Part shown: positions 1 to 22,857 of the stretch, piece by piece
Layout: every line of letters starts with the position of its first letter
Numbering within the stretch: the first letter of the stretch is position 1
Source of the DNA: a virus
Length of the DNA stretch: 22,910 bases
Direction: 5' to 3' (one strand)
IMG/VR virus record: IMGVR_UViG_3300006790_000121
Coordinates: 1-22,910 of that record
The notes under the pieces: generated by a model
Databases searched by the model: none
What the model was told of the DNA's origin: nothing
What the model saw: only the letters and a program-made list of their open reading frames with translations
Position numbers and translations under genes: made by a program

Positions 1-3000
1 GAGACCGCCATACTTGGCACGTTCAATCATGAGCTAACTCACGCTATCCGGGCGCTAGACCTGATTACTCAGGAGGAGCTTGAGCTTCTTGAGCGAGCTT
101 CTCGCAAATATCGGCCCGCGCAAGCCGAGGGGTATGAAGCCGGCGATAGCTTTGTAACCTACACGCAGAGGCAATACGGGGACCGTAGCCCTGTTGTTCA
201 GGCAGAAGAGGCGGTTGCTGAGCTAATTAAGTATGGCTACCAAAACAGGCTCATTGACGAGCGCGGGAATCTTGTCAAGCTGAGTGGCAAGCCAAGAAGC
301 CTGATGCGCCGCATCATGGATTTCTTTAAGCAGATGATTGGCTTTACCCGAGGCGTTGAGGCCAACAACTTCAGCGATTTCCTGAGACGGCTTGAATCTG
401 GCGAGGTGGGGGCTAGAGAGCGCGGCGAAATACGCACCCTATACCGGAGGGAGCGCGAAGCTAAGGTTGTGCCAGAGCGCGGCATAACGGCCAAGGCAGT
501 TGCCGCTGACACGTCACAGAGAAGGCCGCAAGAGATAAGCGACCAGCCGGTGATCGTTGACGACGAACAGCTTTTTGATCGGCGCAGTGATGCAGGCGGG
601 GCATCTGCTAGAGACATGTTCAACGGGACTGACCCCGACATGTTTAACCGCGAGACGGGAGAGGTTGATTACCGTCTGCGGCACAAAAGCCGCAAGGTCG
701 TGGTGGACATGCCTATTGACATGTTTTTGCATTTGGCCGCCTCAATGGAAGGCCCCCGCGCCGACAGTCAAGCCCTAGTGAGAGAGCTGGCCGAAAGCGG
801 CAAAAAGTTCGACAGGATACCACTGCTGGCGCTGTCGTTTGAATCCGGAAAGCCCGAGCATAGATATGTATACGATCACGATGGTCGCCATCGCGCTCGC
901 CAGTTAAAAAGCATGGGTTATGACACGGTCCCAGTGATGATTATGGACGCCTCCATTCGCTGGGACTCTCAGTCTGAAGGCGACTACGACAGAGTAAAAA
1001 CATGGCCCCAAAGCATTCTTAATCAGGACGGGGATTTCGTTTTCCCAATGTTTTTGGATAGGAGTGCGAACGTCAGGTATGGAAGGTTTGGTCCGCAAGA
1101 GGAGACCCTGCTTGACCGTTCACCTATAGAGGCGCCTGTTGACATCACCGATATCGTTTCTGGCGTAGAAAAGGCGCCAAGGCTGAAAGGAAAAAAGGCT
1201 GTTGCTGGATACCTGCAACAACGCACTTTAGAGAAGCTCGGTGGCGTGCCTCGGAATATCGCCAGAGAGGCAGACCGCGAGGCCATCGCGGATGATCTGG
1301 CGCGTGAGGCGATCTTTGAGTACGAGAACCAAGAGAGCGCCGTAGAGTGGTACAACGAGACCATCGACAAGACGATTGAGATGCTTGCCGAGGTGCACCC
1401 AGAGATCAAGACAGACCCCGGATCTAGGGCGGCATTCTTGATGTCGTTAGCCATAACATCGCAGAACCTAGCTGTTCCTGACAACTTGGCCTTAGCAGAG
1501 CAGTCATACAACTACTACAAGAAGAACGGCAAGTTCAAGGTCGAAGGCAAGGGCGACAAGAAGAAGTCGATGGAGTCAAACTTCAAAAAAGCGAACAAGC
1601 TATTTGCAAAGATGACGCCAGTGGAGATTGAGCAGTTCTTGCGAACAGAGTTTGTCGTTAGCGACTTGAACAAGGCAAGCAAGGCGCTGTTGGGTGAGCA
1701 GGCGGACACCGGAGAGCTGGCCGCAAACACCGTGTATGGTTCAGCCATATTCGGACCAAAGATTGGCAACGGCTTCTACACCAATCTGCGGGGCGATTTC
1801 AGTCCTGTCACGATGGATATGTGGTTCATGCGTACTATGGGACGCCTTGCGGGCACCCTCACCGGCACATCCAAATCCAAGCTCGACGGCGCTTACAAGC
1901 GACTTGCAACTGCGGTTGGCAAAAAGCGGGTATTCAAAGACGCCATTGAGCGCCAAGCCAGAGAGATCAAGCGACAGCACGAAAGCGACTACAGGAAGTA
2001 TGCGGCTGAATTTAAGTCAGGCAAGCGGGAGAAGAGCGAGAAAACGCTGGCGGCTGAAAACCTGATCAAGCTGTTGGACGGCACAAACGACGTGCCAATG
2101 AACGGCACTCATCGGAACCAGCTCAGAGATATTACATACAGGGCAATACGCAAGTTTGAGGAAGCCACGGGCGTGTCGATTGAGCCGGCGGCATTCCAAG
2201 CGCTGATATGGTATCCTGAGCAGGATTTATACAAATCACTGGGAGTGAACCTCCGCCATGTTAGACAAGACTATGCAACCTCAACAGAGCAATACCTTAC
2301 CAAGCTCGGAGTTGACCGAGGCAGAATCAAGCGAGCCAAGGATCGGGTTCGGCGCCGCGCAGAGCGAGGACCAGATGGAGTTCGACGCGGCACAGGCGCA
2401 GATGTCCGAGGCGCAGATCGACGCGGGGCTGGACGACTTGATAGCGATCTTTCGGCAACAGAACAGCTAGAGGATCGCTCGGCTCGCCAAATCGACCCCG
2501 TCAAGGTCGAGAAAGCGGTACAGCAAAATCTAGACGCAATCAATCAGACTCAGGGGGCGCCTCGCTTTAGCGTTAAAGCGTCCCCAGAAGCGCAGTACAT
2601 TGGGAGAAACCCCGAAGCCGCGCTGGATCCTGATGATCGGCTTTACGACCAACCAGCACACTCCCCTGAAGCCCAGTCTGCTATTGACAAGTTAACAACA
2701 GGACCGGACCGGGAACAGGCAAATGGCAAGGTGTTCATGGAGGCCACAGACACTGGTCCTCTCGGCACTATGCTGACAAGGTTCAAGCAGTTCGCACTTA
2801 ACCGCTACGCTGGTCTAGAGAAGTACTACCAAAAGAATCCAATGTTGCGCGAGCTTGAGGCTGACTCCAGCGCAATAGCCGCCGCCCTTTTTGCTGATCG
2901 CTCTAGGGGGATTCTGGCGTCTGCAATCAAATACGGCGTACCCGCCTATGAAAACGGGCTGACCAAGGTTGTTGACTTCTACCACAAGAACAGGAAGTAC

Positions 3001-5295
3001 AACGGCTTGATTGACGTAATGTCGCTCATCTACAACAAGGAGGTGGGCGACCTACGCAAGCTGGCGCAGGCATACGCAATCGTCAAGCGTTCTGAATACC
3101 TAAAAACAGTTGAGTACAAGAAGAAGGTGGCGGGGAAGGTCAAGACTCTGGTCGGTAAGGAGACGCCGGTAGACGAAGGGACTCGCGCAGAGATACTCGC
3201 CGCAGTTGACGCCCTGACGGATGCCAATGGGTACAACCCTGTCACCGCGTGGCACGATGTATGGCAGGCGTACAACGACAAGACGATTGATTTCCTCAAA
3301 AACACCGGCATCCTCAATGATGAAACTGCTGATGTATGGAAGGCGTCTTCGTACATACCCTTTTACCGTCAGGCGCAGGGAGACCAGAATGTACCAAAGG
3401 TGGCCTCTGGCGTGTTCGGCGACTTGACCCACCTGTCCAGCTTTAAGAGCTACAAGGGTAGCGAGAAGGCTGTTGACGTGGGCATCATAGAGGCGGTGTC
3501 CCTTAACCTCAGCGCGGCAATAGAAATGGGCATGAGAAATGTGGCCCAGCAGAGAATTGCTCGGGACATGCAGGCGCTTGGCCTTGCAAGGCAGGTTGGG
3601 CTAAAGCAAAGCGTGCCAAACGGAGTGAAGTTTAAGGTTAATGGCAAGCCGGTTCAGTTTGAGATAGATGACAATCTGATCTACAGCTCAATGGAAACGC
3701 TGGGCGGTGGCGCTGTCACTGACATCTTAACAAAAACACTTGGCTTACCGAGCACCATCCTCCGCGAGACCGTTACCCGCGATCCGGGGTTTATGATTGC
3801 CAACATACTAAGGGATACCCTGTCTACATTCGTCACCTCCGGCGCAAATTTTGTGCCAGTTCTGGGCAGTTTGAGGGGGCTGAGCGATGGGGTGGAGCGG
3901 CTGGAGCGTGTCGGCGTGGTCGGTGGTTATGACTACTCGCGAGACCCCGACAACGTTGTTAAGTTTTTTGGAGACGAGGCTACCCGCAGAGGGATTGGGC
4001 CTGAAGGGAAGCGAGGCAGTCCATTCGGGATGTTCACCACGGTATGGAGGTGGGCAGGGGACGCCACAACGGCTTCTGATGCCGCCACAAGAAACGCTGT
4101 TTACAACGATGTTCTTGCCAGAACGGGCAATGAGGCAGAAGCCGCATTCCAAGCAATGGAAATCATCAACTTCTCAAGAAGAGGCGGGCATCCACTGGCG
4201 AGGGTGATCACAGCCGCTATCCCGTTCCTGAACGCCAGATTCCAAGGTCTTGATGTTTTCGTGCGAGCCGCCTCCGGAAACTATTCAGCAGTAGGCGACC
4301 CCAAGGGTCGGGCGCTACAGAAGTTTGCCACAAGAGCGCTGTTGCTCTCTGGTTTGACCGGCATCTACTACATGCTGGTTAGTGATGATGACCAGTATAA
4401 AGAGCAGTCAGATGAGGTGCGAGACAACAACTGGCTCTTGCCGACATCTGCGGGCGTGCCGGTCAAAATCCCAATTCCCTTTGAGGTTGGCTTACTGTTT
4501 AAGACGTTGCCGGAGACAATTATTGCCGCGACCTACGGCGAAAAAACCGCCCCGGAGGTTGCCGAAACCCTGAGAAGAGGCGTTGTTTCCACGCTTGAGA
4601 TAAACCCGCTCGGGGCGCAAGCGTTTGCTCCAGTGGTCGAGGCCGCACTTAATCATAACTTCTTCACTGGAAGGCAGATTGTGCCGTATTACATCGACCA
4701 GAAGATCACTGCGGGATTGCAGGATTCTGCTGGTTCCACCGAAATTGGCAAGTTTGTCGGTCAGGCGCTGAACGTCAGCCCAATGAAGGTGGATCATGTG
4801 ATGTACGGATACACAGGGACTCTCGGCGCCTACGTTCTTGACCTTGTGGATCGCGGCATGAAGACAGAGTTCGTCAAGGGTGAGGGCACTCCCCTGCCGC
4901 CCGCAAGGAATGTGTTTGAGTTTCCCCTGTGGAAGCGGTTTTTCGGTCAGAAAGAGGGGTCTGGCCTCAGAGAGGACGCCTACGATCTGTACAATGAAGT
5001 TTCCACGGTAGTCAACACAGTGAACAGGCTTAAACGGGATGGCCGGAACGATGAGCTAATCGCCTACCTTGCCACGCGCAGGGAGCTATACAGCCTGAAA
5101 GAACCTGTTTATTCCGTAAAGAGAAGGCTTGATGATATCAGGGACCAGAAGAGAAGAGTCACGGCATCAAGCCTAAATCCGGAATTAAAGCGAGAGATGA
5201 TCGACGATCTTGACGCCAAGCTCAACGAGTACCTCAAGGTCATGCCGTTATTAAAAGAAAAGGCGGATTTGCCGTTTATGGAAACAACATTCTAG
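1..5295 (+). CDS. Giant polyvalent phage protein, C-terminal part (zincin, ParB-like, LPD38-like)
   Basis: The frame is open from the first base, so the gene starts upstream of the window and at least 1764 residues are present. Numbering from the window edge, HELTH at 10-14 with a downstream EEAVAE at 69-74 matches a zinc metallopeptidase (HExxH plus a third Glu ligand), common in MuF/polyvalent phage proteins. DGRHRA at about 294-299, followed by a hydrophobic VPVMI strand, resembles a ParB-like domain. A WYPEQ motif lies near nt 2210. Nt 3760-4280 (ending IPFLNARFQGLDV) resembles large polyvalent protein-associated domain 38 (LPD38). Such proteins are thought to be packaged and injected with the DNA. 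The C-terminus is helical and charged. Family assignment is by recognition of motifs, not a search. Nt 2340-2465 encodes an odd Arg/Gly-rich linker, treated separately. Confidence 0.88.
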   Translation, partial: ETAILGTFNHELTHAIRALDLITQEELELLERASRKYRPAQAEGYEAGDSFVTYTQRQYGDRSPVVQAEEAVAELIKYGYQNRLIDERGNLVKLSGKPRSLMRRIMDFFKQMIGFTRGVEANNFSDFLRRLESGEVGARERGEIRTLYRREREAKVVPERGITAKAVAADTSQRRPQEISDQPVIVDDEQLFDRRSDAGGASARDMFNGTDPDMFNRETGEVDYRLRHKSRKVVVDMPIDMFLHLAASMEGPRADSQALVRELAESGKKFDRIPLLALSFESGKPEHRYVYDHDGRHRARQLKSMGYDTVPVMIMDASIRWDSQSEGDYDRVKTWPQSILNQDGDFVFPMFLDRSANVRYGRFGPQEETLLDRSPIEAPVDITDIVSGVEKAPRLKGKKAVAGYLQQRTLEKLGGVPRNIAREADREAIADDLAREAIFEYENQESAVEWYNETIDKTIEMLAEVHPEIKTDPGSRAAFLMSLAITSQNLAVPDNLALAEQSYNYYKKNGKFKVEGKGDKKKSMESNFKKANKLFAKMTPVEIEQFLRTEFVVSDLNKASKALLGEQADTGELAANTVYGSAIFGPKIGNGFYTNLRGDFSPVTMDMWFMRTMGRLAGTLTGTSKSKLDGAYKRLATAVGKKRVFKDAIERQAREIKRQHESDYRKYAAEFKSGKREKSEKTLAAENLIKLLDGTNDVPMNGTHRNQLRDITYRAIRKFEEATGVSIEPAAFQALIWYPEQDLYKSLGVNLRHVRQDYATSTEQYLTKLGVDRGRIKRAKDRVRRRAERGPDGVRRGTGADVRGADRRGAGRLDSDLSATEQLEDRSARQIDPVKVEKAVQQNLDAINQTQGAPRFSVKASPEAQYIGRNPEAALDPDDRLYDQPAHSPEAQSAIDKLTTGPDREQANGKVFMEATDTGPLGTMLTRFKQFALNRYAGLEKYYQKNPMLRELEADSSAIAAALFADRSRGILASAIKYGVPAYENGLTKVVDFYHKNRKYNGLIDVMSLIYNKEVGDLRKLAQAYAIVKRSEYLKTVEYKKKVAGKVKTLVGKETPVDEGTRAEILAAVDALTDANGYNPVTAWHDVWQAYNDKTIDFLKNTGILNDETADVWKASSYIPFYRQAQGDQNVPKVASGVFGDLTHLSSFKSYKGSEKAVDVGIIEAVSLNLSAAIEMGMRNVAQQRIARDMQALGLARQVGLKQSVPNGVKFKVNGKPVQFEIDDNLIYSSMETLGGGAVTDILTKTLGLPSTILRETVTRDPGFMIANILRDTLSTFVTSGANFVPVLGSLRGLSDGVERLERVGVVGGYDYSRDPDNVVKFFGDEATRRGIGPEGKRGSPFGMFTTVWRWAGDATTASDAATRNAVYNDVLARTGNEAEAAFQAMEIINFSRRGGHPLARVITAAIPFLNARFQGLDVFVRAASGNYSAVGDPKGRALQKFATRALLLSGLTGIYYMLVSDDDQYKEQSDEVRDNNWLLPTSAGVPVKIPIPFEVGLLFKTLPETIIAATYGEKTAPEVAETLRRGVVSTLEINPLGAQAFAPVVEAALNHNFFTGRQIVPYYIDQKITAGLQDSAGSTEIGKFVGQALNVSPMKVDHVMYGYTGTLGAYVLDLVDRGMKTEFVKGEGTPLPPARNVFEFPLWKRFFGQKEGSGLREDAYDLYNEVSTVVNTVNRLKRDGRNDELIAYLATRRELYSLKEPVYSVKRRLDDIRDQKRRVTASSLNPELKREMIDDLDAKLNEYLKVMPLLKEKADLPFMETTF
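2258..2470 (+). CDS. Possible embedded out-of-frame ORF inside the polyvalent gene
   Basis: A 70-residue ORF in the +1 frame relative to the host gene. From about nt 2341 its product is acidic and protein-like (QMEFDAAQAQMSEAQ, GLDDLIAIF), with G or C at nearly every third codon position. The host frame over the same bases gives a strongly basic Arg/Gly-rich linker with poorer codon choice. A GGGAGTGA lies about 11 nt before the ATG, rather far for a Shine-Dalgarno. It could be an overprinted gene, a frameshift product of the large gene, or a chance consequence of codon bias. It is listed because the signal is visible; expression is unproven. Confidence 0.25.
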   Translation: MLDKTMQPQQSNTLPSSELTEAESSEPRIGFGAAQSEDQMEFDAAQAQMSEAQIDAGLDDLIAIFRQQNS

Positions 5296-13720: not shown

Positions 13721-13823
13721 GTTGTTGAGCGCAGTCAAGAAACAGCGTTCCAATCCCTACGTTGCCGTTGGTGTCGATACTCGCTCAGGGAAAATTATCC
13801 GGGGACAATTCTATTATGTCTGA
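13704..13823 (+). CDS. Very small phage protein, start uncertain
   Basis: 39 residues from ATG 13704 (MAVAVKLLSAVKKQRSNP). In-frame alternatives are GTG 13692 and ATG 13623; the latter would overlap the preceding gene by 98 bases. The C-terminal half (YVAVGVDTRSGKIIRGQFYYV) is strand-like. It bridges the preceding gene and the next one, whose ATG overlaps its last codons. Ribosome-binding sites are weak at all starts. No family is recognised, and the coding call rests on the tight gene packing and protein-like composition. Confidence 0.5.
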   Translation: MAVAVKLLSAVKKQRSNPYVAVGVDTRSGKIIRGQFYYV

Positions 13824-14295
13824 CAAGTCACACACAGACCTTGGCACCAGTGAGATTTACAAGCGCCACAGCGTGATGGTGGAGGGCGGTAAGATGCCCC
13901 GCGCCAAGGTGATGGATCAGACGCTGATCGACAGGTATCTCATTGATGGGATTTTGACATTACAGGAGCATCAGGCTGGAGAATATATTCTCAGTCAAAG
14001 CGCGCAGGCGGGGATGTATGTGAGGCCGCTTAGATTTGAGGCGAGCACAGGAGGGAAGCGTGCTGAAGATCCTATGGCCAATGACAGTCTGATGCGGTTT
14101 GGGCGCACCATGAAGCTGATCTCAGATCGCTACGGGCCATATCACAGGTATTTGGTGGAGGAGGTGATTATCCACGGCTGGGATGTATCTCAGGATCCCA
14201 AGAAGCTGAAGGCGCTCAAGGAGGGTCTATCTTGGGTCGCTGAAAGAAGGATGGCAGGGGGGAGAAATCCGGTGAGGCACTTGCGTGGGAAATGA
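13816..14295 (+). CDS. Conserved-type phage protein of unknown function
   Basis: 159 residues from ATG 13816; an in-frame ATG 54 bases upstream is inside the previous gene. Recognisable pattern: VMDQTLIDRYLIDGILTLQEHQAGEYI, a helical region ending in an H-Q-A-G turn, then RFGRTMKLISDRYGPYHRYLVEEVIIHGWDV, and a C-terminal KALKEGLSWVAERRM helix. This helical arrangement recurs in hypothetical phage and prophage proteins, some grouped near DUF6456-like regulators, but I cannot assign a function. It lies in the early-type rightward cluster with HTH-like and primase genes, which suggests a DNA-binding or regulatory role as an inference. Confidence 0.75.
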   Translation: MSDKSHTDLGTSEIYKRHSVMVEGGKMPRAKVMDQTLIDRYLIDGILTLQEHQAGEYILSQSAQAGMYVRPLRFEASTGGKRAEDPMANDSLMRFGRTMKLISDRYGPYHRYLVEEVIIHGWDVSQDPKKLKALKEGLSWVAERRMAGGRNPVRHLRGK

Positions 14296-15191: not shown

Positions 15192-15362
15192 CTACTCCTC
15201 GCAGTTGGTTTCAGGTTTGAAATCAGGCCATGATTTGGCCTTAACTTGTTCACAGTAAAACTGTGCGTCAGCAACGGCATCCTCGTAGTCGAGGGATGAC
15301 GCGGTTAAAAATAGGATCGTAGCGGCCAAAACGATAAGGGCCTCTCTGGCGTTGTCAGTCAT
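15192..15362 (-). CDS. Small single-span membrane protein with two cysteines
   Basis: 56 residues. A short charged N-terminus is followed by one hydrophobic helix (about 8-23, ALIVLAATILFLTASS), then a soluble tail with C37 and C54 around a WPDF segment. The tail pattern (AQFYCEQVK, WPD, terminal Cys) recurs in small phage inner-membrane proteins; the cysteines could form a disulfide outside the cytoplasm. The role is unknown. ATG 15362 follows AAGGAGG with ideal spacing and lies in the last codons of the upstream gene. Confidence 0.72.
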   Translation of the reverse strand: MTDNAREALIVLAATILFLTASSLDYEDAVADAQFYCEQVKAKSWPDFKPETNCEE

Positions 15363-15579
15363 CACCCACCTCCTTTTTGCCGCTTTCGTTGACTGCGGCG
15401 ATAATCTGCACCCAGCCACGATCAGCTCCGGTCTCGCCGTTCGGGGAGTACCAGATCTCCAGCTTGTGATCTTCGTTGGCGCACTGGATTACCAAGCACC
15501 CCCCGAAATCCGGTTGGTAGCCATCGGTCATTTGAGAAACTTTGAATTTTTGAGACATCCATACTGGCTTTTCTCTCAT
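15355..15579 (-). CDS. Small phage protein of unknown function
   Basis: 74 residues, not recognised. The middle is beta-rich (GCLVIQCANEDHKLEIWYSP, WVQIIAAV), with a Gly/Asp-rich turn, suggesting a small beta sandwich or hairpin protein. ATG 15579 overlaps the DUF3310 gene stop as ATGA and follows GGGAGG. The C-terminus is charged (ESGKKEVGDD). Position in the leftward accessory cluster gives no further clue. Confidence 0.7.
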   Translation of the reverse strand: MREKPVWMSQKFKVSQMTDGYQPDFGGCLVIQCANEDHKLEIWYSPNGETGADRGWVQIIAAVNESGKKEVGDD

Positions 15580-15791
15580 TTGCACGCCTCCCGCTCAATC
15601 AGTATGTCGAGGTAGTGGCGAGCCTTCCTGAGGTCTTCCACGCCATCAGCATGCTTGTATTTCCATCGGGTTATGTACTTGATAACGGCGTGCTCACAGA
15701 TCCCCAGACCGTTCTCCAGCGCATATTCCAGCGGCTGGATTTTCATCTGCTTGTAGTGGTCGCCGCCCACTTGGGTGTCGAGGCTAGACAT
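15576..15791 (-). CDS. DUF3310 protein (T7 gp1.7-like nucleotide kinase family)
   Basis: 71 residues from ATG 15791, preceded by GGAGG. The family signature is clear: VGGDHYKQMKIQPLEY (8-23), ENGLGICEHAVIKYITRWKYK (26-46) and GVEDLRKARHYLDILIE (50-66). DUF3310 includes T7 gp1.7, a nucleotide kinase acting on dGMP and dTMP, and many short phage homologues like this one. The short form may bind nucleotides without being shown to be a kinase. It sits among small early-type genes, in keeping with a role in nucleotide metabolism. Confidence 0.88.
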   Translation of the reverse strand: MSSLDTQVGGDHYKQMKIQPLEYALENGLGICEHAVIKYITRWKYKHADGVEDLRKARHYLDILIEREACK

Positions 15792-16047
15792 AAGCATCCT
15801 CCTCGGCGTAGCAACCACCGACGATGACGCCGTTACCGTCTAACATGTCAACCTCACCGAATCGCAAAACGTCGTCCGCACTAAACCCGTACTGGTCTGC
15901 GGCTCGGCGCATAGCAGATTCGCTGGAGAAATGTTGCCGTGGGCCACCGTTAAACCAGAGAACAAACTCCTGATCTGGCATGTCATCGGCGTTTGGGCAG
16001 TTGGGGTGGTGGCCGTTTACCACCAAACATTCTCTACATAACATCAT
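15784..16047 (-). CDS. Small protein with N-terminal zinc-finger-like motif
   Basis: 87 residues. The start MMLCRECLVVNGHHPNCPNA has C4, C7, H13/H14 and C17, a compact zinc-knuckle pattern frequent in phage proteins. The rest contains an alpha/beta region (EFVLWFNGG, AMRRAADQYGF, EVDMLDGNGVIVGG). The start at 16047 is chosen because GAGGAG is 5 bases upstream; an adjacent ATG (16044) or GTG at 16053 is also possible. The last gives a GTGA overlap with the upstream stop. Function unknown. Confidence 0.72.
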   Translation of the reverse strand: MMLCRECLVVNGHHPNCPNADDMPDQEFVLWFNGGPRQHFSSESAMRRAADQYGFSADDVLRFGEVDMLDGNGVIVGGCYAEEDAYV

Positions 16048-16049
16048 GC

Positions 16050-16241
16050 TCACTCCTCATCTGATGTGACTGGCTTTAATTCTGGCCGCATCCACTTCTC
16101 GCAGGCCACGCATCTGTGCTCATGCTCACGCACAAATTCTTCATCCACGACAAAGACCTGCCGCCCAATGTCCCAATGGACAGGACTGAATATGTCTAAA
16201 CGGCTAGATCCGCATCGCGTACAAACAAGATCTGATCGCAT
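16050..16241 (-). CDS. Small zinc-ribbon protein
   Basis: 63 residues from ATG 16241, which follows CAGGAG by 6 bases. Two CxxC pairs (C7/C10 in CTRCG; C44/C47 in CVACEKW) separated by about 33 residues form a zinc-ribbon pattern. The middle (RQVFVVDEEFVREHEH) is strand and helix. Small phage zinc ribbons often bind nucleic acid or RNA polymerase, but nothing specific is visible. The tail is acidic. It lies between an acidic helical protein and the zinc-knuckle protein in the leftward cluster. Confidence 0.75.
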   Translation of the reverse strand: MRSDLVCTRCGSSRLDIFSPVHWDIGRQVFVVDEEFVREHEHRCVACEKWMRPELKPVTSDEE

Positions 16242-16606: not shown

Positions 16607-16626
16607 CACGAAATACCTCACTTAAC

Positions 16627-16654
16627 TTGTTAAAAATAAGGGGGCGAACCCCCT
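16627..16654 (-). terminator. Rho-independent terminator with TTCG loop
   Basis: On the leftward transcript AGGGGG-TTCG-CCCCCT forms a tight stem with a UUCG loop, followed by TATTTTTAACAA. It begins at the stop codon of the 16654-16866 gene. Stem and U-tract make this a strong intrinsic terminator. Confidence 0.85.
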
Positions 16655-16866
16655 CAGTGAATTATCCGGACGCCTTGCTCTGCCCAGAATGCGATCAACT
16701 CCGCAACAACCTCGGGAGGCCATACGGAATCGACTGACCCGTCTGGGCCAGCCATCTCTGCGGCCATAGCGAGCGCCGCGTTTGCATCGTGAGGTTGCCC
16801 TATCGGGACAACGTCATCGTCAATAAGAGCAAGCCACTGCTCAGATACTGGCGTTGGTTTCTGCAT
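16654..16866 (-). CDS. Small acidic phage protein flanked by terminators
   Basis: 70 residues, not recognised. N-terminal EQWLALIDDDVVPIGQPHDANAAL is followed by helices (AMAAEM, VVAELIAFWAEQGVRII). The pattern of WLALIDD with a later GPDG and WPPEV may mark a small alpha/beta domain. ATG 16866 follows GGGGAGGAATAG, a strong ribosome-binding site. Near-identical intrinsic terminators lie immediately upstream and downstream, so transcription depends on readthrough or on a promoter hidden within the first terminator. This isolation is unusual. Confidence 0.72.
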   Translation of the reverse strand: MQKPTPVSEQWLALIDDDVVPIGQPHDANAALAMAAEMAGPDGSVDSVWPPEVVAELIAFWAEQGVRIIH

Positions 16867-16883
16867 CTATTCCTCCCCTTTAC

Positions 16884-16913
16884 TTGTTAAAAATAAGGGG
16901 GCGCGTGGCCCCC
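16884..16913 (-). terminator. Rho-independent terminator after the vWA gene
   Basis: On the leftward transcript GGGGGC-CACGC-GCCCCC is followed by TTATTTTTAACAAG. It lies 6 bases after the vWA gene stop and should close the vWA-MoxR operon. The tail sequence is identical over 15 or more bases to that of the terminator at 16627. Confidence 0.88.
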
Positions 16914-16918
16914 GTGGA

Positions 16919-18322
16919 TTACGCCGCCTGAGCGACGATGGTGTCGGCACCGGACTCGGCGATCATGCGTCGAATGTAGGGCACCGGCTCACTGTCGAGC
17001 ACGACAACCAGATTGTCGCGCTGGGCGAGAGACTGCCAGTCATCGTCGCCCATCTCGCCATCGGTGAACACGATAACCAGATCAGACTCCAGACCGTTGT
17101 GCTCAAGCCACTCGACACCAGCGGTCATGTAGGTGCCACCGCCGCAGGGCGCCTCAAGGTCGAGCAGGTCTGCACCGGAATGCACCTCGTCGGAGCTGTG
17201 GAAACGATGATTAGTCCAAGCAACCACAACACCGTCACGCGGCTGGAGCGTGTCGATCAGTGACGCAGACTCGATCATGAATTGATTGAGCATGTCGCGG
17301 CTGACTGATGACGAGATGTCAACCACAATGGAAACGCGCCCGATCTGACCGATTGACGTGGGGCTGATCACGCCCAGCGTCGAGAACCGGCGGCGGTGGA
17401 TGCGAGACCATGTAGTCTGACCGCCATTGCCGGCACGATTGAACCGGTCGGCAAGCTCTGCACGCCAGTCGGTGTCGGATGAATGACTGGGTCGGTAGCG
17501 GTGCGAACCCTCGCGGATAGACTCGGGGAGTCGCGCAGGGTCTCGACCATCTTTGCCAAGCTGTTCGATGCCATCGTCCACTGATGAGCGGATGTCGTGC
17601 TCATCTTCGCGTGCGGCGGCTTCCTGCTCCTCATCGGTGCCCTCATACTCAGGCGTCAGATGATGATCGTGACCGGCAGGTTCAGGCAGATCGGACGGCT
17701 CGCCGGGGTCGCCGCTTGTGTCTGACTCGTCAGCAGTAACAGACTGGTCGCCGTCGTCGCTAGACTCGGGGGCAGAGTCGCCGCCAGACTGGTCGCTGTC
17801 GTTGGAGTCTGCACTGGGGTCGCCCTTGATGTCATCATCGTCATCCTGCTTCTGGTACAGGTCGGCATAGACCGAATCGACAATGTCATCGCGCCCGTAG
17901 TCATCGGAGTAACAGCCCTGCGGGATAGGCTCAAAACCCATCGCTTTGCAGTCGGAGTTGATAACGTAGTCAGCGGCGCGATTGTAGAGCCGGTGATCGA
18001 ACGAAACGCTGGGTCGAAAGAATCCGCGATCCTGATACGCCTTGCCGCGCTGGGGGTGCCGCAGGATTATATGTGACACCTCATGAGCAAGCAGGAACGC
18101 CCGCTGTGAGTCCGACTCAAGCCCGCGAAAGAACTCAGGGCTGATGTAAACATAGACGCCGTCAGTGGCGGCGGTGCTGATCTTGTCGGTCCAGATCACC
18201 TCAGTGGCGAGGAGCACGCTGTAGTGAACGGGTGCTTTGGTTTGCAGGCTGATCAGCGCCGCAATGTAGCGGCGCGAGTTGGTGAGATCAGCAGTGGGCG
18301 CGAACAGTTTTTTGGCTCGCAT
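16919..18322 (-). CDS. vWA protein with N-terminal metallopeptidase-like domain (DUF2201/CobT-like)
   Basis: 467 residues. The N-terminal domain (1-150) carries LLAHEVSHIILRH (H80, E81, H84), the HExxH zinc site of the DUF2201 N-terminal putative metallopeptidase. The middle (about 158-250) is a long Asp/Ser/Glu-rich linker like that of CobT-type proteins. The C-terminal von Willebrand A domain (about 328-460) has the MIDAS signature DISSS (335-339), a Thr in GGGTYMT (395-400) and FTDGE (419-423), so it should bind a divalent metal and a protein ligand. It follows the MoxR ATPase with a 2-base gap and GGAGGT. MoxR-vWA pairs remodel or activate protein complexes; the target here is unknown. 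No sign of a cobalt chelatase setting. Confidence 0.9.
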   Translation of the reverse strand: MRAKKLFAPTADLTNSRRYIAALISLQTKAPVHYSVLLATEVIWTDKISTAATDGVYVYISPEFFRGLESDSQRAFLLAHEVSHIILRHPQRGKAYQDRGFFRPSVSFDHRLYNRAADYVINSDCKAMGFEPIPQGCYSDDYGRDDIVDSVYADLYQKQDDDDDIKGDPSADSNDSDQSGGDSAPESSDDGDQSVTADESDTSGDPGEPSDLPEPAGHDHHLTPEYEGTDEEQEAAAREDEHDIRSSVDDGIEQLGKDGRDPARLPESIREGSHRYRPSHSSDTDWRAELADRFNRAGNGGQTTWSRIHRRRFSTLGVISPTSIGQIGRVSIVVDISSSVSRDMLNQFMIESASLIDTLQPRDGVVVAWTNHRFHSSDEVHSGADLLDLEAPCGGGTYMTAGVEWLEHNGLESDLVIVFTDGEMGDDDWQSLAQRDNLVVVLDSEPVPYIRRMIAESGADTIVAQAA

Positions 18323-18324
18323 GG

Positions 18325-19476
18325 TTACACCTCCATGCCGGCGGTCTGTGCCAGCGGTAGCAGATCATGAAATTTCTGGATGAACGCAACAGCGACATCC
18401 GACGTGAGCACCCAGCCGTTTCGGGCTGAGGCGCGGAGCAGTTTGGAACCCAGCGACACCTGCAAGTCGGGACGCAGGCGCGTGACATAGGCCAGTGCCG
18501 CCTCGCCGGTATCGGCGTCGTGGGCCGAGTTGATGGCGCGGTTGGCGGCCAGCAGTTGGTAGCCCGTTGCGTCTGGCACGTTGGCACCAGTGGGGTCGGC
18601 GAATATCTCAGCCGCAGTCGGCACCTGATCAGCCATCGCAATGTGGCGGGACAGCATGCCAGCGGCGCGGTTGCCAATGTTGGCGGCGAGCAGTGACTCG
18701 ACATATGACGGGATGGCCATGCCGTCGAAGTCAGCCGAATCCATAAACGCCGTCAGGTGTTGAGCGGCGCGTACCAGCGAGCGCGGGGTGCAGAATGGCC
18801 CGTCTTCAGTGGGAACGCAGTCGGCGAAAAAGCCGTCATCTGCATAGGCCAGCGCGCAGTCGATAGCGAGCGGGTTGACGCCATTATCAGCGGCCCATTC
18901 GGCCCACTGTTGGACGGCTCCACTCTTGACATCAAACCGAAGCTCAAACACCGCGCACCGATTGAGCAGGTGCGAGAGCATGCGGGTAGCACCTGACTTG
19001 TCAGAGGTACGGTTGCCAGTGAAACAAACGATCCAGCCGTCAGGGATGGGGTGCCCACCGATAGTGCGCTCAGCGGGGTCGAGCAGGTCGGCCAGCACCT
19101 TCTGAACATCAGCGGTTGCCTGCATCAGCTCGTCGATCAGGATGATGCCGTATTCCTTGCCGGTCTCCCTGATCTTGGTGATCAGCGGCGCGACAGTGAA
19201 GGTGGTGCGGAGATTGCCGTCTGCATCCTTGGATGGCAGTGCGACACCAGCAATCTCAGCGGAGTCGCGATTGGCAACGCGCTCCTGAATGAAGCCCAGT
19301 TGATCGGCAGAAACGCCGACATGCTCCGCGTACAAGTCGCGGAACCAGCCTTTGAAGTACTGGGTCTTGCCGACACCCACGGGGCCGATCAGGCCCACGG
19401 GTTGCTGATTGCCGCTGGCGAGCACCAGCGGGACGATCTGTTGAAATTGAGCGATAGTGGTTTTAACGTGTGCCAT
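18325..19476 (-). CDS. MoxR/CobS-type AAA+ ATPase
   Basis: 383 residues from ATG 19476, preceded by AGGGAGGGATT. Walker A is GPVGVGKT (31-38), Walker B IILIDE (111-116), sensor-1 Asn in FTGNR (152-156) and a probable Arg finger in LLNR (170-173). The insert between Walker A and B and the C-terminal helical domain fit MoxR/CobS-type AAA+ proteins, which form hexamers and act on partners through vWA proteins. An upstream in-frame TTG gives eight more residues but no ribosome-binding site. The gene stands between the DUF3150-like gene (24-base gap) and the vWA gene (2-base gap), so the three products probably form one complex. Confidence 0.92.
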   Translation of the reverse strand: MAHVKTTIAQFQQIVPLVLASGNQQPVGLIGPVGVGKTQYFKGWFRDLYAEHVGVSADQLGFIQERVANRDSAEIAGVALPSKDADGNLRTTFTVAPLITKIRETGKEYGIILIDELMQATADVQKVLADLLDPAERTIGGHPIPDGWIVCFTGNRTSDKSGATRMLSHLLNRCAVFELRFDVKSGAVQQWAEWAADNGVNPLAIDCALAYADDGFFADCVPTEDGPFCTPRSLVRAAQHLTAFMDSADFDGMAIPSYVESLLAANIGNRAAGMLSRHIAMADQVPTAAEIFADPTGANVPDATGYQLLAANRAINSAHDADTGEAALAYVTRLRPDLQVSLGSKLLRASARNGWVLTSDVAVAFIQKFHDLLPLAQTAGMEV

Positions 19477-19500
19477 GTTGAATCCCTCCCTAGAGATCAA

Positions 19501-20478
19501 TTAGTCGATAAGGTCAGCGAGCAGTGAGTCGCCGACGATCACGTTGGATGCCGCAGGTGCGACGGGTGTTGCGGTTGATGGTGCCTTTGCCACAGCGGCA
19601 AGTGCCTTGCTGGCAGTGCCAGCGGCGCGGATCGCTTGGTTGCGGCGAGTCGCGTTGTGCTTGACCTGTTCAATGTTAGGTATCGAGCCGATACGCTGGT
19701 CGATCAGGTCAGCAACCTCCAGCACGCGGGGGTCGTTGTCATAGCCCTCGACCATACCGCGCAGTAGCGTGGCGTGGCGCTTGGCATTGTCGAGCAGTGA
19801 CTGGTGCAGGCGCTTGCCTTCAGTCAGTTGCTTCTCGACAACATCCATGTGCTTCTGAGCGCCTTCGATAGCGGCCTGTTTCGCGCCGTCGAGTTGCTTG
19901 CTGAGCCGGTCATGATGACGCTGTGCAATGTCAGCGGCGAGACCGGCAGGCAGTGCGAGGCTGTCGACATTGAACACGGGCAGAGGCTCAGGCGCGCCGA
20001 TATTCACGCGGTACTTGCCAGCTAACACGTCAGGATCAGGCATATCCACGTCGGACACGCGGCCCAGATCAAGGCGGTTGCGAGCCGCATAATACCCGCG
20101 ATAGTCGGGCATGAATGCGTCGAGCGCGGCGAATGCCTCAGCCTTCAGCTCTGCCAGCTTGGTGATCACCTCAGGCACCCGTGACACGGGCACCAGCCGC
20201 TTGCCACGTTTCTGCTGGCCGTCCTCAGCGTCGGTGAATGGCAGGGTGTTTTCGTAAAGCCAAGTGCGGACGCTGGCAAACTTGCTGTTGACTTGTTTCA
20301 AGTCGGTAGTGAGTGTGCCCAGCGATCCCACGCGGGTCCGTACTGGCACAGTGTGATTTACCTTGCACTCGCTAGCGGCGGCATCGGATGCCACTGCTGA
20401 GTGCTTCATTGGGTCGGCGCGTCCGATACTGATGTCGAGCACCATGAAATTGTTGGCGATAGATTGTTGCATGTTCAT
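19501..20478 (-). CDS. DUF3150-like coiled-coil partner of the MoxR/vWA pair
   Basis: 325 residues. N-terminal segment with KFASVRTWLYENTLPF, then a basic KRGKRLVPVSRVPEVITKL and LKAEAFAALDAFMPDYRGYY; this order resembles DUF3150 proteins, which often lie beside CobS/MoxR and vWA genes in phages and plasmids. Residues about 185-245 form a helical/coiled-coil stretch rich in Gln, Lys and Ala. The Ala/Pro/Thr tail (about 285-315) is low-complexity. The ATG follows GGGAG in the loop of a small hairpin and overlaps the stop of a 24-codon leader ORF. A structural third subunit of the complex is the likely role; the family name is by pattern. Confidence 0.75.
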   Translation of the reverse strand: MNMQQSIANNFMVLDISIGRADPMKHSAVASDAAASECKVNHTVPVRTRVGSLGTLTTDLKQVNSKFASVRTWLYENTLPFTDAEDGQQKRGKRLVPVSRVPEVITKLAELKAEAFAALDAFMPDYRGYYAARNRLDLGRVSDVDMPDPDVLAGKYRVNIGAPEPLPVFNVDSLALPAGLAADIAQRHHDRLSKQLDGAKQAAIEGAQKHMDVVEKQLTEGKRLHQSLLDNAKRHATLLRGMVEGYDNDPRVLEVADLIDQRIGSIPNIEQVKHNATRRNQAIRAAGTASKALAAVAKAPSTATPVAPAASNVIVGDSLLADLID

Positions 20479-20549
20479 ATTGATTCACTCCCTTGTGAAA
20501 GTTGGGTTTGAGCGGGAACGCTCACAAATGCCCACCGTGAGATGGGCAT
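20475..20549 (-). CDS. Possible 24-residue leader peptide coupled to the DUF3150-like gene
   Basis: ATG 20549 follows AGGGAG with 8-base spacing. The 24-codon frame (starting MPISRWAFVS) ends in TGA that overlaps the next gene's ATG (ATATGA). Its first codons form one arm of a hairpin (ATGCCCA/TGGGCAT). The arrangement is that of a translationally coupled leader controlling access to the downstream start. No conservation test was possible. Confidence 0.4.
   Translation of the reverse strand: MPISRWAFVSVPAQTQLSQGSESI
20484..20499 (-). promoter_or_regulatory. Hairpin-looped ribosome-binding site of the DUF3150-like gene
   Basis: On the leftward mRNA TTCAC-AAGGGA-GTGAA places the Shine-Dalgarno in the loop of a 5-bp stem, 5 bases before the ATG. 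Confidence 0.6.
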
Positions 20550-20564
20550 GGTGAAAGCTCCCTG
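20510..20564. repeat. Leader repeat, copy A
   Basis: Shares its layout with 21429-21486: a GAGC...GCTC element, ATGCCCA/TGGGCAT arms and the string TGGGCATGGTGAA followed by GCTC. Arms can form two hairpins, GAGCG/CGCTC and ATGCCCA/TGGGCAT. It lies between the gene at 20565 and the DUF3150-like gene. Confidence 0.65.
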
Positions 20565-20831
20565 CTATTGCAGTCCCTTGCCGATTAGCTCGCCGCGAAA
20601 CATTCCTGCGCGGCGGCTGGGGAAGATGCGGCGTTGCTTGAACCGTTGCCGCACCTGTTGTGAGCGCAATTTGGTACAGCGGCGCGCCTGTTTGATGTGC
20701 CGCTCAAATCGCAGATTGAGTATCGGGCTGTTGCCAGCCGCGTGACACTCGACGTGGATAACCCGCCAATCCCACTGCGCGGGGTTGCGAGCCTCACGGC
20801 GAGACTGCAACTGCTCTAGATGTATTGCCAT
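20565..20831 (-). CDS. Small Arg-rich basic protein
   Basis: 88 residues. The N-terminal part is HLEQLQSRREARNPAQWDW with a strand (VIHVECHA). The second half is very basic (ERHIKQARRC, LRSQQVRQRFKQRR), ending RAGMFRGELIGKGL. The charge suggests nucleic-acid or ribosomal interaction; no family is recognised. The ATG overlaps the upstream stop as TAATG and GGGAGA is nearby, which supports it being translated. A second ORF in another frame covers part of the same bases but lacks a start context. Confidence 0.62.
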   Translation of the reverse strand: MAIHLEQLQSRREARNPAQWDWRVIHVECHAAGNSPILNLRFERHIKQARRCTKLRSQQVRQRFKQRRIFPSRRAGMFRGELIGKGLQ

Positions 20832-21094
20832 TAAAATTCATCTCCCTCAATTCTTGCTTCGATGTTGGGCAAGTGCCTGCCCACCCGATCAAGCTCTTCC
20901 TGAGCGCGTTGCAGTGCCTCTTTCGCACCCAGCTTGGTGACAGACCATGCATGCCCCATAACGAATGGCTCATCAGTGCCGCGCATTCGGTGGGTGACCA
21001 TAATCCATTGCTCCTTGCTACGGGCATCGGGATTCAGCTCATCGAGAACGTAGGTGCCTGACTGGTTAAGCATTTTGGGTTTGGTGTTACTCAT
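20831..21094 (-). CDS. Small phage protein of the vWA module
   Basis: 87 residues, not recognised. N-terminal GTYVLDELNPDARSKEQW, then strands (WIMVTHRM, PFVMGHAWSV), then a helix (KEALQRAQEELDRVGRHL) and an acidic end (IEGDEF). It may be a small alpha/beta domain. The start at 21094 has a Shine-Dalgarno within a 6-bp hairpin loop, like its module neighbours. It probably belongs to the same transcript as the MoxR/vWA genes. Confidence 0.7.
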   Translation of the reverse strand: MSNTKPKMLNQSGTYVLDELNPDARSKEQWIMVTHRMRGTDEPFVMGHAWSVTKLGAKEALQRAQEELDRVGRHLPNIEARIEGDEF

Positions 21095-21098
21095 AGTG

Positions 21099-21116
21099 AT
21101 TCACTCCCTAGTGAAT
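21099..21116 (-). promoter_or_regulatory. Hairpin-looped ribosome-binding site
   Basis: ATTCAC-TAGGGA-GTGAAT on the leftward mRNA: a 6-bp stem with the Shine-Dalgarno in the loop, 4 bases before the ATG at 21094. Same design as at 20484 and 21402. Confidence 0.65.
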
Positions 21117-21146
21117 TGGTTTCGGCCAGCATCAGGCCATCATCAG

Positions 21147-21187
21147 TGCCACTGCTATGTGGCAGACCTCGGGGGCACATGGCCCCC
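21147..21187. repeat. Two adjacent stem-loops
   Basis: TGCCAC-TGCTAT-GTGGCA (21147-21164) and GGGGGC-ACATG-GCCCCC (21171-21187) lie between two module genes. The second has the same stem as the operon terminator at 16897 but no U-tract on either strand, so it is more likely a processing or stability element than a terminator. Confidence 0.55.
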
Positions 21188-21193
21188 TGTTAA

Positions 21194-21397
21194 TTAGAAC
21201 TCATCCTCGCGCCTTCGTATTTCCATCGCGCAGTAGTGAGCCTCGTCAGCGTATTGATCGCATTTTGGGTTATCCGGATTTGCGGCCATCGCCCTGCGAC
21301 AGTCGCCCAGCGCATAAAACAGCGCATCCAAATCACGCTTTCTGCACAGCTCTTGATACTCGCTGTGCCACTGATGTTGCCCGTAGGTGTATTGCAT
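21194..21397 (-). CDS. Small phage protein, first gene of the vWA module
   Basis: 67 residues. Aromatic/Gln-rich N-terminus (MQYTYGQHQWHSEYQELC), then helices with the segment DALFYALGDCRRAMAANPDNPKC and DEAHYCAMEIRR, ending acidic (EDEF). Cysteines at positions about 18, 33, 46 and 56 might bind metal but are not in a standard pattern. ATG 21397 follows AGGGAGTGATCAC with the Shine-Dalgarno in a hairpin loop. A second ORF overlaps in another frame but lacks this start. Function unknown. Confidence 0.68.
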   Translation of the reverse strand: MQYTYGQHQWHSEYQELCRKRDLDALFYALGDCRRAMAANPDNPKCDQYADEAHYCAMEIRRREDEF

Positions 21398-21401
21398 GTG
21401 A

Positions 21402-21415
21402 TCACTCCCTAGTGA
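21402..21415 (-). promoter_or_regulatory. Hairpin-looped ribosome-binding site
   Basis: TCAC-TAGGGA-GTGA on the leftward mRNA, 4 bases before the ATG at 21397. Shortest of the three related hairpins. Confidence 0.55.
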
Positions 21416-21428
21416 ATGGGTTGGTATT

Positions 21429-21486
21429 GAGCAGAGCGCTCAGGCATACCCAACGCGCAGTGCGGTGGGCATGGTGAATGCTCTGG
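21429..21486. repeat. Leader repeat, copy B
   Basis: Related to copy A at 20510-20564 (GAGC, ATACCCA/TGGGCAT arms, the shared TGGGCATGGTGAA string and GCTC). It lies upstream of the first gene of the module. Confidence 0.6.
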
Positions 21487-21499: not shown

Positions 21500-21869
21500 G
21501 GCCACTCCCTACCTGCCTCCGCTGTACCCGTTTTATTGCTTCCTGCAATCCAGCATGGTTATGCACTGCCCTTCGCGAGGGAGAGGGGGTCTCGGTGCGC
21601 TAGTGGATTAGTCAACACGGTGGTGGTGGGGGAATAGCCGCCATACCAATGCGGGGATAGTGGTATGCCTATCTGTCACCGTTCTCGCCGTCGCCTATCC
21701 CTATGGGGGTCTCTGGATCTGTTTGGGTCATCGAATGCGGTGCCGCTCGTTTGCTCAGAACAGGATGGCTTGAATCACCCCGATGCTGGCCGCTCAGGTT
21801 GGGAAGGGTTGAGGCCCTGCGGGATTGGGTGCCGGCTCCCCGTCGCCGGTACTACAAACTACAAAGCGA

Positions 21870-21897
21870 ATTATGCCGACCCTGAGCATAGTGTCAA
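21870..21897 (-). promoter_or_regulatory. Sigma70-like leftward promoter for the vWA module
   Basis: Read leftward, TTGACA (21897-21892), 16 bases, CATAAT (21875-21870). The -35 is perfect and the -10 matches five of six. Same spacing as the recombination-operon promoter. Confidence 0.7.
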
Positions 21898-22371: not shown

Positions 22372-22857
22372 ATGGGCAAGACAAGGGACGGGCTGACAGC
22401 CAAGCAAATGCACTTTGCGCGGTGCGTGGCATCAGGCATGCCGCAGGCTGAGGCGTATCGGGAAGCGTATGACGTGACAGCGGAGGGCAAGACTGCAACG
22501 CATCGTGAGGCGGCGAGCCGATTGATGGCGAGGGCTGACATCAAGGCAAGGGTGGATGCGCTGATAGCGCAGAGGGAGCGGTCGATACTAGCCTCCTCGC
22601 TCTCAGACCGTGAGAGAGTCCTGAGCAAGCTACGCCACTGGGTGGACCATGCAGAGGCCGGGGACAGCAACCGCATCCGCAGTGCTGAGCTATTGGGCAA
22701 GTCAGTGGGCCTGTTCAGGGATGTTGTAGAGACCAGCGAGAGCAAGACCAGCGACGAGTTGCTCGCTGAGCTGGAGACCATGCTGGAGTCGGTCGCAGAT
22801 GATGCCGAAACGCCAGACGAATCCGAGCAAATGCCAGAACAAACTATCATGCACTAG
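22372..22857 (+). CDS. terS: Terminase small subunit
   Basis: 161 residues. LTAKQMHFARCVASGMPQAEAYREAYD (8-34) followed by the helix THREAASRLMARADIKARVDAL is the classic N-terminal helix-turn-helix region of Terminase_2-type small subunits, which recognise the packaging site and regulate the large subunit. A central helical part (about 75-115) supports oligomerisation, and the tail is acidic (VADDAETPDESEQ). ATG 22372 follows GAGAGG with 5-base spacing. The large subunit would be expected downstream, beyond the window; after the stop only a C-rich tract and 53 bases remain. Confidence 0.9.
   Translation: MGKTRDGLTAKQMHFARCVASGMPQAEAYREAYDVTAEGKTATHREAASRLMARADIKARVDALIAQRERSILASSLSDRERVLSKLRHWVDHAEAGDSNRIRSAELLGKSVGLFRDVVETSESKTSDELLAELETMLESVADDAETPDESEQMPEQTIMH

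Follow-up and report, generated by a model that had tools for sequence, protein, structure and literature searches.

The question raised by positions 16919-21397 (minus strand) of IMGVR_UViG_3300006790_000121, a linear IMG/VR record of a virus of bacteria analysed here over its full length of 22,910 bases (the window), is what three large genes encoded there together do for the phage. These genes (hereafter the trio) encode a DUF3150-family protein, an AAA+ ATPase and a DUF2201 protein that joins a metallopeptidase to a von Willebrand factor A (vWA) domain. All six open reading frames (ORFs) of the original prediction, the three large ones behind three small ones and a promoter, are confirmed on the minus strand. 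The ATPase/metallopeptidase-vWA pair is among the core genes of N4-like phages and is also present in many other phages, and no function for it was found in the literature surveyed. From sequence comparison, the trio may be an early, anti-host remodelling peptidase, a tentative reading to which a little less than even confidence is attached, as the antirestriction gene ardC takes exactly the place of the trio in relatives, following the same leader RNA.

The slot is bounded by a conserved neighbour, the terminase small subunit gene (terS; 22372..22857, plus strand; phrog_51, E=5e-15). Relatives were drawn from viral contigs (L numbers below), and 41 terS loci were fetched. An ArdC-like ORF lies beside terS in L018, L028, L031 and L051. 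The ORF of L018 matches ArdcN (2e-15), MPTase-PolyVal (1e-38) and the antirestriction family phrog_7245 (4e-67), while those of L028, L031 and L051 share its sequence start and each exceed the MPTase-PolyVal cut-off. In L051, ardC lies between the flanks of the trio, with terS on one side and homologues of the window ORFs 15784-16053, 15192-15419 and 13762-14295 and of the primase, in order, on the other. Among 17 contigs, DUF2201_N is found in 12 and MPTase-PolyVal (ArdC) in 4, and no contig has both. The window trio contains neither ArdcN nor MPTase-PolyVal, and the trio-bearing contigs lack MPTase-PolyVal. As judged by these matches, ArdC is an alternative occupant of the trio slot, and the trio itself is not ArdC. 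The slot of L057 contains another metallopeptidase-ATPase-vWA set, in which an SprT-like protein (below cut-off) is accompanied by an ATPase of the AAA_5/CbbQ_C kind and a vWA protein of the CobT_C kind, and L059 resembles L057 by its ORFs beside terS.

The leader RNA is a structured element of about 200 nucleotides (nt) between the promoter and the first gene of the window module (21604..21821, minus strand; 173 bits with covariance model R1, of whose own alignment it is a member). Other copies are located at L007:5901-6102, L005:5962-6164, L018:7660-7841 and L008:788-1016, and the six divergent copies in all comprise four before the trio and two before ardC. For these six related sequences, RNAalifold predicts, from the very alignment in which they are scored, 36 pairs, of which 10 are changed on both sides; 97.7% of the cells are paired, against 34-46% with the partners slid, and the observed scores are reached by no shuffle. 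The covariance model retrieved no copies beyond its six source leaders (L052 is the contig of L018), and the leader has no match in Rfam. As the copies are related, the structure derives from the same alignment and none was found outside the six, the leader is regarded as a conserved structured RNA within this lineage, with no wider claim. Pattern-scan matches in L016 and L019 turned out to be coding sequence and were rejected as leaders. Upstream of the first gene, L006 and L025 possess a different, GC-rich leader (CACGGGGTG...CGTGCGGGACTGCGTCAAGTCCGCC) instead of the leader RNA, with terS and the trio retained, while L032, L035, L038 and L057 contain long untranslated repeat-rich leaders.

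Four start codons of the window module are each preceded by a hairpin with the Shine-Dalgarno (SD) sequence in or beside its loop. The gene starting the module (21194..21397) has a type A hairpin leader (21395..21483) ending in an SD hairpin (21402-21415), which is followed by a type B leader (21095..21187; SD hairpin ATTCACT-AGGG-AGTGAAT, 21099-21116), a second type A leader (20476..20560; SD hairpin TTCAC-AAGGGA-GTGAA, 20484-20499) and the SD hairpin of the ATPase gene (ATCTCT-AGGG-AGGGAT, 19482..19497), all on the minus strand. The 16 other genes of the window that were scored all fall below these four. The arms covary beyond shuffles (148/155 cells paired, shuffle mean 101) over 31 instances, part of the non-window ones having been chosen by a scan that requires pairing. 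SD hairpins also precede starts in L005-L008, L025, L028, L031, L051 and L052, comprising both trio and ardC operons; the type A leader of the window DUF3150 gene also stands before ardC in L028, and in L005 and L008 the DUF3150 gene has a leader of type B. The operon promoter (sigma70-like, TTGACA-16-CATAAT; 21870..21897, minus strand) matches 11/12 positions and is top-scoring in the region, although promoter-like sites in the region are in total no more numerous than expected by chance, and two relatives (L024 and L027) have an equivalent (9-10/12) at a distance of 38-63 nt ahead of the leader. The claim that the module has its own promoter, leader and ribosome-binding design thus holds more strongly than it was made, as the leader RNA and the SD hairpins covary. 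These elements constitute a second, independent lead on the timing of first genes in phages.

Nine further phage lineages contain the trio, at 29-93% identity and with terS as its neighbour in nearly all cases. The order DUF3150-ATPase-vWA beside terS is found in the window, L005, L006, L007, L032, L038, L045 and L056, and probably in L025 and L035, two contigs that break off within the DUF3150 gene; in L008 the trio is accompanied by a partial terS. In L037, L040, L042 and L043 the genes next to terS run ATPase-third protein-vWA, and the third protein of L037 is DUF3150-like (E=7e-9). Of four loci obtained by scanning genomes for the vWA protein, one (L068, a 5.4-kb contig of a metagenome-assembled genome labelled Propionibacterium) has the trio. 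DUF3150 was not seen (E>0.1) in the ORFs tested beside the pair in the N4-like phage LIT1, the Vequintavirus CM1, the Aeromonas phage PAc and a Rhizobium phage. As these tested neighbours are not DUF3150, the ATPase/vWA pair is, by its sequence distribution, widespread and the trio a subset of it.

The small genes behave otherwise. The 67-aa ORF (21194..21397) has a homologue in no locus, the 87-aa ORF (20831..21094) solely in L007 and L008/L017, and the 88-aa basic ORF (20565..20831; isoelectric point 11.9) solely in L007 (97% amino acid identity), all on the minus strand. The 88-aa ORF is coding, as synonymous codon changes against L007 outnumber non-synonymous ones (8 versus 3). The original prediction described a cassette with private small genes that looked as if it had moved as a unit, and proposed a survey of gene neighbourhoods as a check. 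The survey gave a split result, in which the large genes co-occur and the small ones do not: one is found nowhere else, one in one further lineage and one in two, while the trio stays next to terS over 29-93% identity with the small genes mostly absent. The idea of a mobile unit carrying small genes of its own was thus rejected, and the module is, on this distribution, an operon kept within its lineage. A foreign origin was also considered in view of the high G+C content of the trio and was ruled out, as the same rise recurs in every relative against that relative's own background (41-53%) and is no mark of recent transfer. Two divergent lineages have a small gene of phrog_3754 ahead of the trio (L005:6547-6918 and L042:4522-4965).

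The DUF2201 protein (467 aa; 16919..18322, minus strand) comprises an N-terminal zincin with the motif HExxHxxxxH (18056-18085), an acidic linker (17633-17848) and a C-terminal vWA domain with the metal-ion-dependent adhesion site (MIDAS) sequence DISSS (17306-17320). It matches PF13203 (E=1.5e-25, 90.7 bits, cut-off 23.2), PF09967 (E=1e-8, 35.7 bits, cut-off 26.4) and phrog_1314 (E=7e-61), so that the profile search proposed as a check found both Pfam domains over cut-off. In an alignment of eleven homologues down to 18% identity, H80, E81, H84 and H89 of the zincin motif (residues 80-89) as well as N114, D118 and N122 are invariant, as are the MIDAS residues D335, S337, S339, T397 and D421. 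Both the zincin and the MIDAS look active, as their residues are invariant across these homologues. The linker (residues 159-230, about 70) contains 25 aspartate or glutamate residues against 1 lysine or arginine, and the earlier description of a vWA protein with an intact HExxH and an acidic linker is confirmed. An AlphaFold model of the protein was poor (mean predicted local distance difference test, pLDDT, 53.6) and was not used. The family, PHROG 1314, is labelled 'HNH endonuclease', a label copied through hundreds of phage records; as its motifs are those of a zincin and a vWA domain, this is a mislabel.

The AAA+ ATPase (383 aa; 18325..19476, minus strand; Walker A at 19363-19386) is taken to start at ATG 19476, directly past its SD hairpin and in register with the relatives, the TTG at 19500 being wrong. 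It scores exactly at the cut-off of AAA_5 (22 of 22) and matches phrog_1297 (E=2e-45). Walker A, Walker B and sensor 1 are present, and K37, D115, E116, N155 and R232 are invariant. With a profile of fifteen homologues, the nearest solved structure is midasin (E=2e-26), NorQ giving 4e-6. By these motifs and matches the protein is assigned to the helix-2-insert (MoxR/midasin-like) AAA+ group, in agreement with the earlier assignment as a CobS/MoxR-type ATPase in a MoxR-vWA pair. The ATPase of L007 (L007:8001-9158) is just 67-69% identical to that of the window, versus about 88-92% for its operon neighbours, a divergence which, from these identities, is attributed to allele exchange within the operon.

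The third protein (325 aa; 19501..20478, minus strand) was claimed to be DUF3150-like, which holds for its family and not for its own Pfam score. Alone, it falls below the cut-off of PF11348 (DUF3150; E=0.0024, 17.6 bits against 24.9), but 7/10 members of its family match this profile (best 1e-6), and the protein annotated as DUF3150 in phage MinM2 is matched in a profile comparison at E=3.5e-10. Its AlphaFold model (pLDDT 79.5) has a DUF3150 protein as the second-best viral fold match (E=2e-8), the first and third being unnamed phage proteins. By the profile and predicted fold of its family, it is assigned to DUF3150. A fold search of the model against the PDB gave only generic helical bundles, none with E<=0.001, so no fold is named, and a sequence search of phage records with the protein gave no match. 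The last ten residues (GDSLLADLID; 19504-19533) are invariant in close relatives, and variants of this tail (GGLLxDLID, GGLLQDIL) are kept in distant relatives past a variable linker. The sixth ligand of a MIDAS metal is usually an acidic residue. This ligand is supplied by the target (PMC13036017). The acidic LLADLID tail could thus be a docking tail and a candidate MIDAS ligand.

These features suggest how the three large gene products might form one machine. The ATPase ring would work on the DUF2201 protein, whose MIDAS would grip a partner or target via an acidic residue, and the N-terminal zinc peptidase would cut or trap the remodelled substrate, with the DUF3150 protein as a dedicated adaptor or target arm presenting its tail to the MIDAS. 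Transcription would begin at the operon's own promoter, the leader RNA and SD hairpins would set timing or yield, and the machine would act early on a protein complex of the host, most likely one bound to DNA and serving defence or restriction. In N4, transcripts of the homologues gp24/gp25 belong to the middle and not the late class (PMC4193335), a Lar-like restriction-alleviation gene directly follows the pair in EcP1, and an AAA+ protease is known to relieve type I restriction, HsdR being degraded by ClpXP (PMC11109961). Plasmid pLS20 likewise has repeated structured untranslated regions ahead of its ardC (PMC8708921), which counts in favour of this reading. A fuller version of the anti-host reading, in which an AAA+/zinc peptidase with a MIDAS-docked DUF3150 adaptor takes apart a restriction or defence complex of the host at an early stage of infection as a functional substitute for ArdC, both being under a new class of SD-presenting leader RNA at the genome end beside terS, is speculative and, taken as a whole, unlikely.

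Several points weigh against an early anti-host role. The leader common to the trio and ardC indicates shared regulation, not shared function. The mutual exclusivity of the two is a pattern and not a statistic, and it rests on few independent events, as the contigs are related fragments. Adjacency to terS may merely be inherited genome order. Moreover, the metalloprotease activity of ArdC is dispensable for antirestriction (PMC7213743), so the shared zincin fold is no argument for proteolysis.

With an early anti-host role thus held tentatively, virion assembly or maturation, in which the trio would be a chaperone-peptidase remodelling and processing structural (tail or internal) proteins, has to be weighed against it. 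This was proposed for the jumbo-phage MoxR ATPase and vWA protein with an N-terminal metallopeptidase (Iyer et al. 2021, PMC7824862), and it agrees with the function of ATV p618/p892 in tail development (PMC4124505), the virion genes near gp24/gp25 in some N4-like phages (PMC4193335), the electrospray ionization tandem mass spectrometry (ESI-MS/MS) note carried by the PA5oct ATPase and the position of the trio beside terS. However, the trio lies on the strand opposite to terS, within a segment of early/replication-type genes, the stretch of the window from terS to the primase has no recognisable virion gene, gp24/gp25 are middle transcripts, and in relatives the trio gives way to ardC with the leader unchanged in kind. 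Assembly is thus regarded as somewhat doubtful here, and the ardC exchange behind the same regulatory RNA sets a testable hypothesis of early counter-defence against this published proposal. A remodeller linked to replication or packaging, loading or clearing proteins on phage DNA (helicase, polymerase, terminase), would suit the location of the window trio between terS and the primase/recombination genes, as well as the helicase and DNA polymerase genes adjoining the pair in N4-like phages. Such a role is rather improbable, as relatives that replicate with the same primase carry ArdC in place of the trio, which is thus not required for replication itself.

The original prediction also pointed to ternary systems of bacterial conflict, and a cargo system of the MoxR-vWA ternary type, protecting the host or excluding other phages, would have a similar layout of MoxR, vWA protein and third component (PMC7159879). 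The likeness is a loose analogy, as the third component is DUF3150, the vWA protein lacks a variable effector domain, no defence match was obtained with PADLOC, NCBIfam or Pfam, and the operon is conserved as a lineage core and is not patchy cargo. The general Pfam, NCBIfam and PADLOC scans gave no match to VMAP-C, iSTAND or similar domains, whose models were not searched by name. Such a system is very unlikely. Metal insertion of the cobaltochelatase (CobS/CobT) kind is scarcely credible. A loose similarity of AAA_5 and vWA speaks for it, as does a true CobT_C vWA protein in the same slot of L057, but the window vWA protein matches DUF2201 and not CobT_C, and no CobN or cobalamin family is present among the scanned window proteins, in line with the earlier remark that a metal-chelatase role is unlikely without cobalamin genes nearby.

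At the other end of the operon, the predicted intrinsic terminator is real (16897-16913, minus strand) and has a near copy after the next gene (16637-16656). Both lie within 44-nt near-identical copies (16621-16664 and 16878-16921), each comprising a terminator hairpin and the start region of the following gene, and the operon may perhaps require read-through, given these copies. Past the terminator, a 70-aa acidic ORF (16654..16866, minus strand) is 96-97% identical in L003 and L007. Elsewhere in the window, positions 304-5295 (plus strand) encode a 1,663-aa protein with an LPD38 domain, and scans of the window for tRNA genes and Rfam families gave no matches.

Part of this arrangement is already known, namely the ATPase/vWA-peptidase pair (N4 gp24/gp25, Vequintavirus, jumbo phages) and, in cultured MinM2, a partly annotated trio, while the following are new: the conservation of the DUF3150 trio as an operon of this lineage, the replacement of the trio by ardC, the leader RNA and SD hairpins that the two kinds of operon share, and the invariant tail. 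N4 gp24/gp25, which belong to the Schitoviridae core (PHROGs 1297 and 1314), are likewise an adjacent AAA+ ATPase and DUF2201 protein with the same motifs, but their genome position differs from that in the window and a DUF3150 partner was not found in LIT1, the single N4-like candidate tested. The MoxR/DUF3150/VWA-like cluster of cyanophage MinM2, found also in the Planktothrix phages Pag-Yong1 and Pra-JY27, has all three components in one operon; in contrast to the window, the MinM2 genes run ATPase-DUF3150-vWA and are separated by small genes, terS is absent alongside them in the stretch viewed, and the third protein lacks the LLADLID tail. NorQ-NorD, RavA-ViaA and midasin, the last being the nearest solved ATPase, share the logic of an ATPase and a MIDAS with the trio, and they are not known to possess a peptidase domain or DUF3150. 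Group 2.2 of the jumbo phages likewise combines a MoxR ATPase with a vWA domain fused to an N-terminal metallopeptidase, and is described as a pair with a proposed role in virion assembly; the part of the article used here makes no mention of DUF3150 (PMC7824862). ArdC of R388 (PMC7213743), also a zincin, has homologues in the same slot and behind the same leader RNA in relatives, but it is a single gene product with a single-stranded DNA-binding domain, no ATPase and no vWA domain, and its architecture is unrelated to that of the trio. The closest parallel to the leaders, drawn from their description, is found in pLS20, a conjugative plasmid of Gram-positive bacteria, in which the EGeRS1 regions are likewise repeated, structured and untranslated and lie upstream of ardC and other early establishment genes (PMC8708921).

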